Positions 52,643 through 58,573 of a DNA stretch of 61,848 bases are shown here, piece after piece. Origin of the DNA: an uncultured Bacteroidales bacterium (lineage in GTDB: Bacteria; Bacteroidota; Bacteroidia; Bacteroidales; UBA4417); contig CAIRMR010000211.1 of assembly GCA_903879715.1 (NCBI GenBank), positions 1 to 61,848 of the forward strand, given 5' to 3'. Numbering within the stretch: position 1 is the stretch's first letter; the number at the start of each line of letters is the position of its first letter. The notes beneath the pieces are model-generated. The model did no database searches and was not told the DNA's origin. It saw only the letters and a program-made list of their open reading frames with translations. A program made the translations under genes and the position numbers.

Positions 52643-53602
52643 ATGGATTCCAATAAGCATTTTGACGCAATTGTGATAGGCGCAGGGCCAGCCGGACTTA
52701 CGGCTGGCATCTACCTCTCGCGCGCCAGGGTGAAAACACTGGTTTTAAACGAAGGCACCGTTGGTGGCCAGATGGTTTTAACGCACGAAATAGCCAATTA
52801 TCCCGGCGTTGAAAGTATTAGCGGATACCAGCTTTCGATGATCATGCGCAACCAGGCGAAAAAATTTGGCTGTGATATTAAAAGTAATATCACTCTTGAA
52901 TCGCTGAACACAGATGGAGAGATTAAAGAAGTTATTCTTTCAGACGGAACCGTTTTTACAGCCGATGCAGTTATTCTTACTCCCGGCGGTCGTTCGCGTA
53001 CACTTGGGGTTGAAGGTGAAAACGAGCTGAAAGGCAAAGGCATTTCGTATTGCGCAACCTGCGACGGCGATTTTTTTACCGATAAGGAAATTATGGTTGT
53101 TGGTGGTGGAAATTCAGCGCTCGAAGAAGCCGTTTCGCTTACCAAATATGCCAGTAAAGTTACCATTGTTCATCAGTTCGATCATTTCCAGGCATTTGAA
53201 TTTGCTATTGAGGAAGCCCGAAACCATCCGAAAATCAGTTTCATGATGGAATCAAAAATAACCGCTTTTCATGGCAATGAAAAACTCGAAGGAATTGAGA
53301 TCACAGATTTAAAAAGTGGTCTGAAACAAAATCAACCTATCGACGGTGTTTTTATCTTTATCGGTTATGTGCCCAATACTGAGTTTCTGGCAGGCAAACT
53401 GGAGCTTAACCAATGGAAAGAAATCGTTGTTGATACCGATATGCAAACCAGCGTAAAAGGTGTATTTGCGGCAGGCGATTCGATAGTTAAAAAATACAGG
53501 CAGGTAACAACGGCAGTTGCCGATGGAACCATAGCTGCACTTGCAGCCTCAAAATATATACACGAACTTCATCAGATTAAAAAACTTCAACACATCTTAT
53601 AA
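52643..53602 (+). CDS. trxB: Thioredoxin reductase
   Basis: 319 residues, standard length. An N-terminal FAD motif GAGPAGLTAGIY is followed by the active site CATC with Cys137 and Cys140, the NADPH motif GGGNSALEEA and the late FAD region GVFAAGDSIVKKYRQ. It reduces thioredoxin with NADPH. The stop of the preceding CGRMGPMC gene is 5 bp before its start, and it overlaps the anchored thioredoxin gene by 1 bp, so the three form a tight unit. Substrate choice between them needs testing. The VHQFDHFQAFEF part, where NADPH-specific enzymes have arginines (HRRDxFRA), suggests that NADH or another donor (ferredoxin/F420-like) is possible. Confidence 0.93.
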   Translation: MDSNKHFDAIVIGAGPAGLTAGIYLSRARVKTLVLNEGTVGGQMVLTHEIANYPGVESISGYQLSMIMRNQAKKFGCDIKSNITLESLNTDGEIKEVILSDGTVFTADAVILTPGGRSRTLGVEGENELKGKGISYCATCDGDFFTDKEIMVVGGGNSALEEAVSLTKYASKVTIVHQFDHFQAFEFAIEEARNHPKISFMMESKITAFHGNEKLEGIEITDLKSGLKQNQPIDGVFIFIGYVPNTEFLAGKLELNQWKEIVVDTDMQTSVKGVFAAGDSIVKKYRQVTTAVADGTIAALAASKYIHELHQIKKLQHIL

Positions 53603-54021
53603 TGACAATAACCGTAATATTTACTTTCCTGCTTTTTACCGGATTTATCACTTACATGTACTTCACCTATAAGAAGATAAAAAATACTCCTGAAGAAGAA
53701 ACTCATTCAGCCATTCAGCAACTCAGTGATGCTAATTTTCAGGCACAGATAAAAAACGGAATCACACTGGTGGATTTCTGGGCTGCATGGTGTATGCCTT
53801 GCAAAATGATGGCTCCGGTTTTAAACGAAACTGCTGATGCACTGGGAAATACAGCCCAAATAGGCAAACTGGATGTTGATTCGAACCGTGAATCTTCAGC
53901 CAAATACGGAGTGAGGAGTATTCCTACTTTGATTTTATTTAAAAACGGGAAAGAAGTGAATCGTTTTGTTGGTGTTAAAACCAAAGATTTTCTTCTGAAG
54001 GAAATCAGTAAAGTTGTTTAA
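53602..54021 (+). CDS. Membrane-anchored thioredoxin
   Basis: 139 residues. Residues 1-22 are a membrane helix; the rest is a full thioredoxin domain with WCMPCKM (Cys64, Cys67) instead of WCGPC and a cis-Pro in SIPTL. The short basic stretch TYKKIKNT after the helix suggests N-out, domain-in topology, so the thioredoxin faces the cytoplasm (positive-inside rule), although a cleaved export cannot be excluded. It overlaps trxB by 1 bp and is likely coupled to it. Confidence 0.85.
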   Translation: MTITVIFTFLLFTGFITYMYFTYKKIKNTPEEETHSAIQQLSDANFQAQIKNGITLVDFWAAWCMPCKMMAPVLNETADALGNTAQIGKLDVDSNRESSAKYGVRSIPTLILFKNGKEVNRFVGVKTKDFLLKEISKVV

Positions 54022-54080: not shown

Positions 54081-54320
54081 ATGAAAGAAACCTGCGAGAA
54101 TGATACCCGGCCTAAGAATTTTAATGAATTGATACGTTCAGCCTATTTCTGGAAACCTGTAGCCGGAATAATAATCGGAGGAATCGGAGGTTTTTTGTAT
54201 TACCACTTTGTAGGCTGTGCATCTGGTTCGTGCGGTATTACAAGTAATCCATTTTCGAGTGCGCTTTTTGGAGCCGCAATGGGATTTTTTGTTGTTAACC
54301 GTCCTTGTGAAACATGCTGA
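54081..54320 (+). CDS. DUF6132 family small membrane protein
   Basis: 79 residues with two hydrophobic segments: FWKPVAGIIIGGIGGFLYYHFVG, then a CASGSCGITSNPF loop and a second glycine-rich helix, ending in a CETC tail. Four Cys (two in the loop, two at the end) plus one near the start are striking for the size. It matches DUF6132 proteins by memory. They are found in redox and sulfur contexts, but no function is known. It sits between an anchored thioredoxin and the ArsM-like methyltransferase, and thiol chemistry at the membrane is a fair guess. Confidence 0.75.
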   Translation: MKETCENDTRPKNFNELIRSAYFWKPVAGIIIGGIGGFLYYHFVGCASGSCGITSNPFSSALFGAAMGFFVVNRPCETC

Positions 54321-54353: not shown

Positions 54354-54983
54354 ATGGAAATCAAAGAAATAAATAACAGATATAGCGAACTGGCAGAATC
54401 AGATTGCTGCCTTTCGTGCGGAGGAGCAATAAATTATGCGGAGCCAACTACAGGCGAAGTATGTGTTGATTTGGGAAGTGGTCGTGGAACGGATGTTTTA
54501 CGTATGGCCGAATCAGTTGGTGAAACCGGTTTCGTATATGGTATTGATATTTCGGATGGAATGCTAGAAAAAGCACGCCGTAATGCCGAAAAGTTTGAAG
54601 TTAAAAACGTTAGTTTTGTCCGCAGCGAACTCGAAAAACTGGAGCTTCCTGATAAAGTGGCTGACCTTGTGATTTCAAATTGCACACTTAACCATGCATC
54701 TGATAAACAGGCAGTATGGGACGAAATTTTCCGTATCCTGAAAAAAGGTGGCCGCTTTGTGATAAGCGATATCTATTCCACGGCTCCTATTGCTGATGAA
54801 TACCGCAACGATCCGGCTGCTGTTGCCGAGTGCTGGGCTGGGTCCGTTACACGTCCCGAATATATGCAGCACCTCGAAAAAGCAGGTTTCGCTTCTGTTG
54901 AAATCCTCGAAGAATCAGCGCCTTACGCAAAAGGAAATGCCGAAGTCTGTAGTTTTACCATAGCCGGAAATAAAGCTGCATAA
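54354..54983 (+). CDS. ArsM-like SAM-dependent methyltransferase
   Basis: 209 residues with the class I core CVDLGSGRGTD (motif I), GIDISDGMLEKA and DLVISNCTLNH. Cys110 in ISNC and Cys160 in VAECWAGS stand where arsenite methyltransferases (ArsM/AS3MT) have their As-binding cysteines. A CCLSCGG run (Cys18, Cys19, Cys22) opens the protein. The C-terminal extension of long ArsM proteins is missing. It may methylate arsenite or a related thiol-bound group. Because it lies 105 bp before a Cys-rich peptide and its radical SAM maturase, methylation of that peptide, or of a metal it binds, is an alternative. No arsR or ars transporter gene is nearby. Confidence 0.75.
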   Translation: MEIKEINNRYSELAESDCCLSCGGAINYAEPTTGEVCVDLGSGRGTDVLRMAESVGETGFVYGIDISDGMLEKARRNAEKFEVKNVSFVRSELEKLELPDKVADLVISNCTLNHASDKQAVWDEIFRILKKGGRFVISDIYSTAPIADEYRNDPAAVAECWAGSVTRPEYMQHLEKAGFASVEILEESAPYAKGNAEVCSFTIAGNKAA

Positions 54984-55087
54984 TGTGCCAGTATTCTGAA
55001 TAAATATCACTGAATACTGATAATCAGAAATATAGAATTTAATACTGAGTAATTAAAATCATTTATACATACTTAAAATCAAAAATC

Positions 55088-55195
55088 ATGAAAAGTCTTA
55101 TCAAGAAAAAAGTTGAAGTTCAAAAAGTTAATACAAAAAAAGTAGCGCAATGCTGCGCCAAAACATCAAAAACCGTTGTTGGTTGTCACGATTAA
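55088..55195 (+). CDS. Candidate modified-peptide precursor, Cys-rich, 35 residues
   Basis: ATG 55088 to TAA 55193-55195. The peptide begins with a Lys/Val-rich leader (MKSLIKKKVEVQKVN) and ends with a core CCAKTSKTVVGCHD that holds three Cys (22, 23 and 33), several Thr/Ser and a terminal His-Asp. It starts 105 bp after the ArsM-like gene and ends 85 bp before a radical SAM/SPASM gene on the same strand. A small leader-plus-core peptide with Cys in the core beside a SPASM enzyme is the usual layout of radical-SAM modified peptides (RiPPs). I cannot place it in a named precursor family. Chance occurrence is unlikely given the bias and the context, but expression is unproven. Confidence 0.65.
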   Translation: MKSLIKKKVEVQKVNTKKVAQCCAKTSKTVVGCHD

Positions 55196-55280
55196 TAGAT
55201 TTTGTTTAAAACAAGAAAAATTGGGTTGTGTAAAACAGCACAATCATTTTGACAGTAACCTACAATAAGCCTGGTATTTA

Positions 55281-56606
55281 ATGATTTATTCCAAACACAA
55301 TATTTTCTCAAAGATCAAAGAGTCGGATAACTATTTTATTGTTAACCTGCTCAACGGCAGTGCGGATATTTTAAACCCCGCCGAAGGCAGTATGGTTCAG
55401 GATTTTCTGAATGGGAAGACTATTCCTGCTGAGTTCCACGAAAATTTAACCGTTCAGGGATATCTTGTTGACCCAAAGGAGGAAGAACGACTGTATCGCA
55501 CAAAATACCTTGATTTTATTGATACACGGGATGAGGATGAGATACAGCTGTTTTTTGTTCCCAATTACAGTTGCAATTTTGCCTGCACGTATTGCTACCA
55601 GGACGAATACACAACTGCCAAACAAGGACTTACTAATGAAGTAATAGACGCTTTTTTTAACTATGTTAAAACTGAATTTGCCGGTCGCAAAAAGTATCTT
55701 ACTGTTTTTGGCGGCGAGCCTTTGCTTAATTCGCCGAAGCAAAAGGAAATGATAGCTTATCTTCTGAAACTGGCAAATGATTCCAGCCTGGAAGTGTGCT
55801 TCGTAACCAACGGTTATTCATTGGTTGATTATGTTGAAATACTGAAAACTGCCAGCATCCGCGAAATTCAGGTTACCCTGGATGGAATAGGAAGCGTGCA
55901 CGATAAGCGCCGGTTTCTTAAGGGTGGAGGTGCTACTTTTGACAAGATTGTGGAAGGAATAGATGCTTGCCTGAGTAACGAATTGCCCGTTAACCTCCGT
56001 ATGGTTGTTGACAAAGAGAACATAACAGGTTTACCCGAAATGGCCCAGTTTGCAATCGAAAGAGGCTGGACTAAAAGTGAATTCTTTAAAACACAGCTTG
56101 GTCGGAACTACGAGTTGCACCATTGCCAGGCTACTTCGGAGAAATTGTTCAGCCGCATTTCACTGTACGAAACCATTTATGAACAGGTAAAGCAACATCC
56201 GTACATTCTCGAATTTTATAAGCCCGCGTATTCCATTTCAAAATTCCTGTCCGAAAACGGTGAACTTCCTGATCCACTGTATGATGCTTGCCCTGCCTGT
56301 AAAACGGAATGGGCATTTGATTACACCGGGCACATATTTTCGTGTACAGCCACAGTAGGCAAGGAAGATGAATCGCTGGGAACTTTCTATCCGGAGGTTT
56401 CGCGCAAAGAAGAATTGATCAATGCATGGGAAAACCGTGATGTTACTTCTATCCCAGAATGCAGCACCTGCAGTATGCAACTTGCATGTGGCGGAGGTTG
56501 CGGCTCAGTGGCTAAAAACAGAACCGGTACTGTGTGCTCAACCGATTGCCGCCCGGTGAAAGAATTGCTTGAACTTGGATTCTCTGCTTTCTTCGAAAAA
56601 AATTAA
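55281..56606 (+). CDS. Radical SAM/SPASM peptide maturase
   Basis: 441 residues. The first 80 form a PqqD/RRE-like leader-binding region (NYFIVNLLNGSADILNP). The radical SAM core has CNFACTYC (Cys98, Cys102, Cys105), FGGEPLLN and TLDG. A C-terminal SPASM domain with many Cys ligands (CPACKTEW from Cys337, FSCTATVG, CSTCSMQLACGGGCG and VCSTDC) binds two extra 4Fe-4S clusters. SPASM enzymes of this size cross-link or modify precursor peptides, for example making thioether or carbon-carbon bonds with cysteines. The 35-residue Cys-rich peptide 85 bp upstream is the probable substrate (inference). No transporter or protease gene for export is visible. Confidence 0.9.
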   Translation: MIYSKHNIFSKIKESDNYFIVNLLNGSADILNPAEGSMVQDFLNGKTIPAEFHENLTVQGYLVDPKEEERLYRTKYLDFIDTRDEDEIQLFFVPNYSCNFACTYCYQDEYTTAKQGLTNEVIDAFFNYVKTEFAGRKKYLTVFGGEPLLNSPKQKEMIAYLLKLANDSSLEVCFVTNGYSLVDYVEILKTASIREIQVTLDGIGSVHDKRRFLKGGGATFDKIVEGIDACLSNELPVNLRMVVDKENITGLPEMAQFAIERGWTKSEFFKTQLGRNYELHHCQATSEKLFSRISLYETIYEQVKQHPYILEFYKPAYSISKFLSENGELPDPLYDACPACKTEWAFDYTGHIFSCTATVGKEDESLGTFYPEVSRKEELINAWENRDVTSIPECSTCSMQLACGGGCGSVAKNRTGTVCSTDCRPVKELLELGFSAFFEKN

Positions 56607-56639
56607 CAGCTTTATGAATCAATGAACTCAAAAGAAAAT

Positions 56640-56820
56640 ATAACCACAGAGACACAGAGAGCACAGAGGATCACGGAGGAAATTATGATCTGTGTTTATC
56701 CATGTAATCCGTGTATCCGTGATAAAAGACAATGCAAACCACCGAGGCATTGAGAGCACTCAGGATCACTAAGGGAAAAGTTCCGTGTGTCTCCATGTAA
56801 TCCGTGTCTCCGTGGTTAAA
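56640..56820. repeat. Four alternating copies of the ACCACRGAGRCAC dispersed repeat
   Basis: Direct copies at about 56641-56680 and 56738-56775 alternate with inverted copies at 56692-56724 and 56785-56818 (GTGTCTCCATGTAATCCGTG type). The array fills the gap between the radical SAM gene and the fusion gene, and can fold in two hairpins. Confidence 0.65.
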
Positions 56821-56877
56821 AAACTCTGTATACTTGATTCCTGAATCATCACTAAACAACGATCAAAAAAAACAATA

Positions 56878-58146
56878 ATGAAAGAAATTACTTCATCCGA
56901 ATTCGAAACCGAAATTCTTGCCGGTGGCAAAGTTGTCCTCGATTTCTATTCAACCGAATGCCCGCCATGCGAAGCTGTTGCTCCCAAATTTGAAGGTTTG
57001 GCAAAGCTCTATGGCAACGATATCAAGTTCGTTAAAATGTTCCGCCAACAAAATAAGCCATTAGCGGAACAGTTAGGTGTTAAATCATCTCCTACCCTAC
57101 TCTTCTTCGATAAAGGCGTTCAGGTTGCAGAAACGCTTACCGGTGGCATCAAGCGTAGCGATATTATAAATCGATTGGATAGCATGTTATCGCCGGAGCG
57201 GGTAAAAGAGATTAAGAAAGACATCAAACCTACCGTTTCTGAGTTTGATGTTCTCATTCTTGGTGCCGGTCCCGGTGGACTTACAGCAGGCTTGTACCTC
57301 TGCCAGTCGAAAGTTAATACCGTGCTTATTGATATAGCGCTGCCAGGAGGTCATGTTTCCACAACGCACGAAGTATCCAACTATCCCGGGTTTATTGATC
57401 CTCAGCCGGGTTATTTGTTGTCGCATAATATGTCGGAGCAAACCAAACTCTGCGGCACAATTTATAAAGTAGCCGTTGATGTTTCAAAAATTGACCTGGA
57501 AAAGAAAGAAGTGGTTGTCGATGAATTTGAAACTATCAAGGCTAAGAAAATTATCATTGCAACCGGCACATCACCTAACCTGATGGGCGTAAAAGGTGAG
57601 CGTGAACTGAAGGGTAAAGGAATTTCCTATTGCGCGACCTGCGATGCCAAATATTACGGCGACAAGGAAGTTGTAGTTATCGGCGGAGGAAACTCAGCCG
57701 TAGAAGAAGCAGATTTTATCAGCAAGTTTGCCAGCAAGATTACAATGGTTCACCAGTTTGATACTTTTACAGCCAACAAACAGGCACAGGAGAAATTGTT
57801 CGCCAATCCTAAAATCAGCGTACTTTTTGAGCATGAGCCACGATCATTCTCCCGTGAAGGCGACAAAATGATTACCGAAGTAGAAGATCTGAAAACTAAC
57901 ACTGTAACAAAACTGGTTAGCGACGGAGTATTCGTTTTTATCGGCATGAAACCAAATATCGATTTATTCAGGGATAAACTGGAACTCGATAAATGGGGTT
58001 ACATTAAAACAGACGAGGATATGCGTACCAGTATGCCCGGAGTATATGCCGTTGGCGACGTTATCAGTAAAAAATACAGGCAGATTACTACGGCAGTGGC
58101 CGATGGAACCATTGCTGCTATTGCAATTGCAAAAGAATTTAATTAA
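56878..58146 (+). CDS. Thioredoxin-thioredoxin reductase fusion
   Basis: 422 residues. Residues 1-105 are a thioredoxin domain with STECPPCEA (Cys28, Cys31). Residues about 120-422 are a full thioredoxin reductase with GAGPGGLTAGLYL, active site CATC (Cys252, Cys255), GGGNSAVEEAD and GVYAVGDVISKKYRQ. Electron transfer from the reductase to its own thioredoxin is expected. Known fusions in mycobacteria have reductase first; here the thioredoxin is first. As in trxB above, the NADPH-binding stretch is VHQFDTFTANK without the Arg pair, so the donor may differ. It is separated from the radical SAM gene by dispersed repeats and is followed 19 bp later by a DUF302 gene. Confidence 0.9.
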   Translation: MKEITSSEFETEILAGGKVVLDFYSTECPPCEAVAPKFEGLAKLYGNDIKFVKMFRQQNKPLAEQLGVKSSPTLLFFDKGVQVAETLTGGIKRSDIINRLDSMLSPERVKEIKKDIKPTVSEFDVLILGAGPGGLTAGLYLCQSKVNTVLIDIALPGGHVSTTHEVSNYPGFIDPQPGYLLSHNMSEQTKLCGTIYKVAVDVSKIDLEKKEVVVDEFETIKAKKIIIATGTSPNLMGVKGERELKGKGISYCATCDAKYYGDKEVVVIGGGNSAVEEADFISKFASKITMVHQFDTFTANKQAQEKLFANPKISVLFEHEPRSFSREGDKMITEVEDLKTNTVTKLVSDGVFVFIGMKPNIDLFRDKLELDKWGYIKTDEDMRTSMPGVYAVGDVISKKYRQITTAVADGTIAAIAIAKEFN

Positions 58147-58165: not shown

Positions 58166-58573
58166 ATGAACGCAAACCAATTAATCATTGAGCAGGTGAG
58201 CCCTTTCGACGTGGCAGCCACAGTTGAAAAACTAATTGAAGCCGCCGCAAAAAGAGAATGGCAGAATCCTGCAGTTCACAACCTGCAACAGTCGTTGGCA
58301 AAATCCGGGAAAGAAGTACGCCCGGTTCAGGTAGTCGAAATTTGCAAATCCGATTATTCGGGTAAAATGCTCGAAAAAAACGATGAAAGGATCAGTTCAA
58401 TCCTGATGCCTTGCCGTATTTCGGTTTACGAAAAAGAAGATGGTAAAACCTACGTCGCTCTATTAAATATGGCAGGAATGACAGCCGGACTATCGCCTGT
58501 AATTGCCGAAGCAATACATGGCGCTTCCGACGAATCTTTCGAGATCGTAAAATCTGTTGTTGGACCTTTCTAG
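58166..58573 (+). CDS. DUF302 domain protein
   Basis: About 135 residues with the DUF302 pattern: a VSPFDVAATVEKLIEAA helix, PVQVVEICKSDYSGKML, a strand LMPCRISVYEKEDGKTYVALLN and GMTAGLSPVIAEA. Family structure is a small alpha/beta domain; function is unknown, but genes often neighbour sulfur and thiol redox systems. Cys64-like (EICKS) and Cys90-like (LMPCR) residues may be redox active. ATG 58166 is chosen; a longer frame from 58046 overlaps the fusion gene and has no support. It is probably co-transcribed with that gene and is followed by a hairpin at 58615-58639. Confidence 0.85.
   Translation: MNANQLIIEQVSPFDVAATVEKLIEAAAKREWQNPAVHNLQQSLAKSGKEVRPVQVVEICKSDYSGKMLEKNDERISSILMPCRISVYEKEDGKTYVALLNMAGMTAGLSPVIAEAIHGASDESFEIVKSVVGPF

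Follow-up and report, generated by a model that had tools for sequence, protein, structure and literature searches.

A conserved cysteine-containing peptide gene linked to ArsM-like methyltransferase, radical SAM/SPASM and thioredoxin reductase genes: a predicted RiPP-like cassette

The window, a 61,848-nucleotide contig (CAIRMR010000211.1) from an uncultured Bacteroidales bacterium (GenBank assembly GCA_903879715.1), encodes a 35-residue peptide with three cysteines between an ArsM-like methyltransferase dependent on S-adenosylmethionine (SAM) and a radical SAM enzyme with a SPASM domain; a fusion of thioredoxin with thioredoxin reductase follows. We propose that these genes probably constitute a cassette like those for ribosomally synthesized and post-translationally modified peptides (RiPPs), which would produce a short, ribosomally encoded thiol peptide with a predicted modification. 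In our best reading, the product would be redox-active or metal(loid)-binding. The coordinates, plus-strand orientation and residues that an initial annotation of the window gave for the methyltransferase, the peptide and the radical SAM enzyme are all correct. Its component list stands for these three genes and lacked the recurrent thioredoxin–thioredoxin reductase fusion.

Conservation and linkage of the peptide gene

Searches with the radical SAM protein of the window matched eight of 16 genomes in the genus (E ≤ 1e-30), 49 of 393 in the order (E ≤ 1e-50) and nine of 395 in the phylum (E ≤ 1e-40), with the window's own genome included at each level. The enzyme-first set comprises 52 loci chosen by their radical SAM/SPASM enzyme, 51 of which have upstream DNA (L090 does not). 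A CCAK-x6-GCHD-stop frame is present upstream of the enzyme in all 51 and in the window, with a core-to-enzyme gap of 2–429 bases in 51 of these 52 loci and of 1,078 bases in L070. Among the phylum-level relatives, the peptide lies beside five of five SPASM enzymes at 55–60% identity and beside none of three distant ones at 26–28% identity; no peptide was found within the 3.3 kb of L218 (genome G450), where the enzyme is a 99-residue fragment. A Bro-N domain frame (L070:10453-11292, minus strand) separates the peptide and radical SAM genes at the single locus L070. At L236, a distant SPASM enzyme (26–28% identity) is followed downstream by a short cysteine-rich frame, and L234 also has a short frame containing cysteine; these frames perhaps represent a separate peptide family.

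The peptide-first set was obtained by scanning the DNA of a collection of 84,980 species genomes for the motif and contains at least 119 loci. The stop codon directly follows GCHD in all 119 listed matches, although the pattern did not require a stop, and the frame, with a start chosen by us, is 30–65 residues long in 117 of them; the frame at L181 needs an internal GTG start. At even base composition, our own arithmetic gives about two chance matches per 257 billion bases. Removal of duplicates by exact match around the core reduced 172 loci to 161, and some enzyme-first and pattern-scan loci may share genomes. The non-duplicate peptides have an immediate stop (160 of 160), Ala at core position −2 (160 of 160), Gln at −1 (157 of 160) and Ser at +5 (155 of 160), all four being features outside the requirements of the pattern, and their synonymous codons vary. 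The peptide-first set necessarily contains the residues that the pattern specified, and all of these are also found in the 51 enzyme-first loci. The resulting tail consensus, AQCCAKxSxxxxGCHD-stop, is nearly fixed, while the N-terminal half is basic and variable and often begins MKSLIKK. A chance frame is ruled out by the presence at every enzyme-first locus with upstream DNA, the universal stop and the fixed positions off the pattern, and on this comparative evidence the 35-codon frame is a real gene. The initial annotation had named two outcomes that would speak against its RiPP-like reading, a peptide missing beside homologous SPASM enzymes and cysteines free to vary; instead, every one of the 51 enzyme-first loci has all three cysteines. 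A set of 24 diverse peptides gave no match to any NCBIfam model (E ≤ 1), and the only Pfam match of the window peptide is the BTK motif, below threshold (14.7 of 24 bits).

The linkage to the enzymes holds in both directions. In the enzyme-first set plus the window (53 loci), a methyltransferase frame occurs at 48 loci and a thioredoxin–thioredoxin reductase frame at 45, some of the misses being contig ends. The listed peptide-first loci, whatever flank is present, contain the methyltransferase in 109, the radical SAM enzyme in 103 and the reductase in 83 of 119 cases, and the 39 that have at least 2 kb upstream and at least 2.5 kb downstream contain them in 39, 38 and 38 cases, respectively. 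On the same strand as the listed peptides, the methyltransferase gene lies no more than 2.5 kb upstream in 93 of 102 loci and the radical SAM gene no more than 1.5 kb downstream in 93 of 103; the exceptions include Myxococcota loci with another gene order or strand, which make up most of those for the radical SAM gene. The reductase is present in 52 of 58 loci with full flanks, a mixed set that was partly picked by the radical SAM gene and is weaker proof for that gene. Enzyme-first and peptide-first linkage thus bear out both the RiPP-like layout and the lasting pairing with an ArsM-like protein that the initial annotation had described.

Enzymes of the cassette and their closest known relatives

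The CX3CX2C motif of the radical SAM enzyme (Cys98, Cys102 and Cys105) is kept in 135 of 135 aligned rows, the window included. The SPASM cysteines 337, 355, 394, 397, 403 and 407 are kept in 135 of 135 or 134 of 134 rows and Cys423 in 130 of 131; the alignments exclude proteins shorter than 80% or longer than 140% of the window protein, and the set of loci with flanking DNA does not include the enzyme fragments of G009 and G276. These cysteines and the conserved short precursor-like gene beside the predicted maturase are among the features expected of a RiPP modified by a radical SAM/SPASM enzyme. Pfam detects no PqqD domain in the radical SAM protein. The N-terminus of an AlphaFold2 model (36 sequences, predicted local distance difference test score 93) contains three strands followed by three helices, which is the order of an RRE domain, and the RRE-like assignment is a structural call from this model. 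The best matches of the model among solved folds are a sactipeptide thioether maturase (PDB entries 5why and 5wgg), which we take to be CteB, and SuiB; the best-matching maturase presumably carries an RRE (PqqD-like) domain. These maturases resemble the cassette enzyme in the radical SAM core, the SPASM cysteines, the RRE-like N-terminus (in the model) and a short neighbouring precursor. They differ from it in sequence (∼15% identity), and the cassette adds the near-fixed tail and the ArsM-like and thioredoxin reductase partners.

Assignment to a named maturase family was rejected in each case. CefB (NF038107) is the best NCBIfam model and matches over the full length, but the score is 148.1 bits against a curated cut-off of 600, and the peptide of that family, to judge by its name, has a cysteine at every fifth residue, in contrast to the CC-x9-C spacing in the window and the 51 enzyme-first peptides. 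The TIGR04463 maturase scores 136.8 of 525 bits and the PapB ranthipeptide maturase (NF047865) 119.8 of 340 bits. A PADLOC pVip label, which would imply defence, was taken as a superfamily match. SbtM, reportedly the radical SAM enzyme of a thiooxazole/selenooxazole RiPP that acts on Cys/Sec of a short peptide, is a further parallel; the cassette peptide has no match among the NCBIfam models.

For the methyltransferase, the top five matches among solved proteins in sequence and the top 13 in fold are all ArsM or AS3MT, with which it shares the fold, the SAM motif and three As(III)-binding cysteines. Cys22, Cys110 and Cys160 align with Cys72, Cys174 and Cys224 of CmArsM, the As(III)-binding residues as numbered in the part of PMC5552862 consulted. 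The initial annotation correctly named Cys110 and Cys160, which match the second and third cysteines of solved ArsM, and omitted Cys22, which matches the first. The triad is kept throughout (Cys22 in 143 of 143 rows, Cys110 and Cys160 in 146 of 146 each). A branch with 100/99 support sets the cassette proteins to one side of a tree comprising 36 of them, 30 canonical ArsM proteins and one paralogue. His114 is found in 36 of 36 cassette proteins versus Leu in 30 of 30 canonical ArsM proteins, and Trp161 in 33 of 36 versus Val or Ile in 30 of 30. In sequence, the cassette methyltransferase is a clade of its own, apart from canonical ArsM. It scores below the curated cut-off of the arsenite methyltransferase model NF008823 (191.8 and 192.8 of 263 bits) and below that of the arsinothricin ArsM model NF040538 (106.4 of 500 bits); a PADLOC mad2 defence label was again regarded as a superfamily match.

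In tblastn searches with the host's own proteins, relatives of Acr3 and of ArsC were each found near none of 161 cassette loci, and an ArsR-like gene near four. The host genome carries a canonical ArsM (343.8 bits) elsewhere, amid an arsenic operon. Ordinary arsenic resistance at the cassette locus was rejected on the absence of relatives of the host Acr3 and ArsC nearby and on the presence of this operon elsewhere in the genome. Canonical ArsM (E 1e-70) occurs in 31 of 54 cassette genomes versus eight of 25 without the cassette, the 25 being no random draw. A link to mercury methylation was rejected, as the one genome searched, that of the host, has no CdhD/HgcA-type match.

The redox cysteines of the fusion are kept in 97 of 97 rows for the thioredoxin part and 101 of 101 for the reductase part. 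Thioredoxin resets a disulfide of AS3MT, and AS3MT methylates its own cysteines, according to the portion of PMC9013690 consulted.

Gene layout, neighbours and carriers

The cassette and its accessory genes in the window are listed in Table 1, together with the arsenic operon of the host. Also encoded in the region are a second thioredoxin, a protein resembling a reductase, and DUF6132, OsmC and DUF302 proteins. In the spacer 5′ of the thioredoxin–thioredoxin reductase gene (56622-56870) there are two exact copies of CCATGTAATCCGTG (0.01 expected with one mismatch allowed). There are 14 promoter-like and six terminator-like sites, where shuffled sequence gives means of 11.3 and 5.0, respectively.

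Table 1. Cassette and accessory genes of the window, and the arsenic operon elsewhere in the host genome.
Feature	Position	Strand	Remarks
ArsM-like SAM methyltransferase, 209 residues	54354-54983	+	Core component; As-binding triad C22/C110/C160; clade mark H114
Precursor-like peptide, 35 residues, C-terminal end AQCCAKTSKTVVGCHD	55088-55195	+	Cysteines C22, C23 and C33
Radical SAM/SPASM enzyme, 441 residues	55281-56606	+	Core component; RRE-like N-terminus in the model
Thioredoxin (CPPC)–thioredoxin reductase (CATC) fusion	56878-58146	+	Usual fourth component
DUF6132 small protein	54081-54320	+	Accessory; its cluster in 34/161 loci
Thioredoxin with N-terminal hydrophobic stretch (by eye)	53602-54021	+	Accessory in close relatives
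DUF302 protein	58166-58573	+	Accessory; its cluster in 37/161 loci; start set after 135-residue relatives
Host arsenic operon	G000 contig C2, L227 5958-9581		ArsR-, ArsC-, C-GCAxxG-C-C- and Acr3-like genes (by eye) around canonical ArsM

Besides the DUF302 and DUF6132 clusters, a DUF1847 cluster recurs at 28 of the 161 loci, each Pfam name being taken from one member. An additional CxxC frame is found between the methyltransferase and the peptide in 19 of 128 loci; all 19 were read by eye as WCxPC thioredoxins, most with a lipoprotein-type start. TonB-dependent receptors lie between the methyltransferase and the peptide at seven loci (L081, L082, L084, L118, L164, L176 and L193) and downstream of the radical SAM gene at six (L085-L088, L132 and L170); the loci with these receptors are two subsets of Bacteroidales, and their arrangement would fit uptake of a secreted product. 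A small IS1595-type zinc-ribbon protein (PF12760, one member tested) is encoded on the minus strand ∼1.6 kb upstream at 22 of the 161 loci. At L189, a DUF1847-like and a DUF302-like frame are located at +100 and +687 from the peptide core. At L143, the region from +281 to +1169 encodes a small NifX/NifB-like protein (by eye, a cofactor-binding family) and then a DUF1847-like frame.

The 119 listed peptide-first loci bear ten phylum labels, of which five are represented more than once: Bacteroidota (70), Myxococcota (20), Spirochaetota (12), Ignavibacteriota (six) and Fibrobacterota (two). Margulisiibacteriota, Hydrogenedentota, Firestoneibacteriota, Gemmatimonadota and Pseudomonadota have one listed locus each, and four loci have no phylum; the carriers are mostly metagenome bins, for which labels can be wrong. 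The named strains are Anaeromyxobacter soli SG29 (L150), in which genes for the methyltransferase, the radical SAM enzyme and the reductase lie near the peptide, and A. oryzisoli SG63, where neither a methyltransferase nor a radical SAM gene was found within the fetched DNA. A tree of the radical SAM enzyme (84 rows) clusters by phylum but not cleanly, with 16 changes against a least possible eight. Two peptide loci were found in each of two bins (L114 and L121 in KR4_bin-0449, L119 and L122 in isolate clean1110), and some genomes may hold two copies.

Proposed function and alternatives

If it works as SPASM maturases are known to, the radical SAM enzyme of the cassette would bind the basic leader through its RRE-like domain and then act on the tail, a thioether being the leading guess given the three fixed cysteines. 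The methyltransferase may act on a thiol-bound substrate, which could be a peptide cysteine or a thiol-coordinated metal(loid), and electrons from the thioredoxin–thioredoxin reductase may reset disulfides in the methyltransferase, the peptide or both, as thioredoxin does for AS3MT; the intact redox cysteines fit a thiol/disulfide cycle of the ArsM/AS3MT kind. No exporter or protease was recognized among the recurrent neighbours of the cassette loci and the tail is near-invariant, so that a cofactor-like thiol peptide is more likely than an antibiotic. A secreted antimicrobial sacti- or ranthipeptide appears highly improbable: a cysteine-containing core and a maturase of the sacti/ranthipeptide fold would suit one, but the tail is nearly fixed across phyla and bacteriocin cores tend to diversify. 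The thiol- or metalloid-binding product that the initial annotation thought attractive would agree with the kept triad, yet the methyltransferase has no Acr3 or ArsC nearby and belongs to a separate clade. The most elaborate form of this idea, a widespread peptide-borne cofactor whose three fixed cysteines hold As(III) or a similar element that is methylated on the peptide, with the SPASM enzyme forming a C–S or C–metalloid bond and the thioredoxin–thioredoxin reductase sustaining the cycle, strikes us as unlikely. Our estimates for these readings and those below overlap, peptide and metalloid methylation both being accounts of the methyltransferase step, and do not sum to one.

Several observations weigh against the reading as a modified thiol peptide. 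In L066 and L115, which come from one bin, the frame that encodes the leader MKSLIRKK does not run on into the CCAK core; this may be a broken gene or a sequencing error. The radical SAM gene is not the adjacent same-strand partner in ten of the 103 listed loci with 0.8 kb downstream, and the reductase is missing from six of the 58 full-flank loci. Neither enzyme is present in the available DNA of five of the 119 listed peptide-first loci (L119, L122, L127, L167 and L189), some of them at contig edges: L119 and L127 end within 0.7 kb and L122 within 0.3 kb upstream, but L167 has 7.3 kb downstream and L189 has 3.1 kb upstream and 1.6 kb downstream without either. L143 has the methyltransferase, but its 2.1 kb of downstream DNA contains no radical SAM gene. 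In 23 of the 54 cassette genomes there is no canonical ArsM, so that the cassette enzyme could be an arsenic methyltransferase in them. Finally, TonB-dependent receptor families (clusters, one member each confirmed by Pfam) lie beside 13 of the 161 loci, and these receptors, together with the exported-looking thioredoxin, argue against a purely intracellular role in some clades.

The methyltransferase might instead methylate the peptide itself, giving S-methyl-Cys or N-methyl-His or modifying the carboxylate of the C-terminal Asp. This methylation could precede or follow the radical SAM reaction, and no metalloid would be involved. We regard this as possible, with less than even chances: the self-methylation of AS3MT (PMC9013690, in part), the clade mark His114 and the His and Asp of the GCHD motif, which every enzyme-first locus with upstream DNA encodes, point to it, while it leaves the retention of all three As-binding cysteines unexplained. 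A metalloid version, in which the peptide thiols hold As(III) (or Se, Sb or Te), the ArsM-like enzyme methylates it and the part of the radical SAM enzyme is either to attach a carbon group or to shape the peptide, is doubtful. It would be related to the ArsL/ArsM and ArsS/ArsM pathways, though linked to a peptide, and it gains from the As(III)-binding cysteines kept across diverse members (35 of 35, 36 of 36 and 36 of 36), the ArsM/AS3MT identity of the 13 best folds, the support of AS3MT turnover by thioredoxin (PMC9013690, same portion) and the cassette genomes that lack canonical ArsM. An ArsM-type enzyme is likewise paired with a radical SAM enzyme in the synthesis of arsinothricin (ArsQML) and arsenosugars (ArsM–ArsS), but the sections of PMC8552651 consulted describe no peptide, and ArsL probably has one cluster, unlike the cassette enzyme with its SPASM and RRE-like domains. 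The near-absence of arsenic resistance genes from the 161 loci and the separate clade, with His114 and Trp161 where ArsM has Leu and Val/Ile, also count against this version.

Two further readings concern the peptide rather than the methyltransferase. It is unlikely that the peptide stays unmodified and serves as a small chaperone or regulator that binds metal or thiols, while the radical SAM enzyme acts on another substrate; three cysteines and one histidine in a fixed short tail and the loci L189 and L122, where the peptide lacks the enzymes in the available flanks, would agree with such a role, but the tight linkage to a SPASM enzyme whose N-terminus resembles an RRE would not. A metallophore, that is, a secreted modified peptide that binds metal and is then taken back up, is still less likely. 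The TonB-dependent receptors at seven plus six of the 161 loci and the extra exported-looking thioredoxin in 19 of 128 loci are consistent with it, but the other recurrent neighbours include no such receptors and no exporter was recognized among them. Conserved copper-binding RiPPs do exist: the cluster for bulbicupramide, which offers a parallel to the cassette, is kept across a genus and its product binds metal, according to the part of PMC12538549 consulted.

With these alternatives weighed, the evidence suggests that the cassette is an unrecognized modified-peptide system. Its radical SAM RiPP kind is known, and what appears new is the combination with ArsM-like and thioredoxin–thioredoxin reductase partners, the fixed tail and the phylum spread; no account of the peptide or the cassette was found in the literature searched, which left out most subscription journals and is weak evidence of absence. 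Nine fixed tail positions under ten phylum labels among the listed loci suggest a fundamental role in the cell and speak against an antibiotic. Provided that the radical SAM step is real, the product would be a cofactor-like or metal-handling peptide, and if the ArsM-like enzyme acts on a metalloid, organoarsenical chemistry would be joined to RiPP biosynthesis. The compactness of the cassette and its presence in the named strain A. soli SG29 make these proposals directly testable. Should the peptide-borne metalloid/thiol reading be true, the product would be an organometalloid or thiol cofactor of a new type, one encoded ribosomally.

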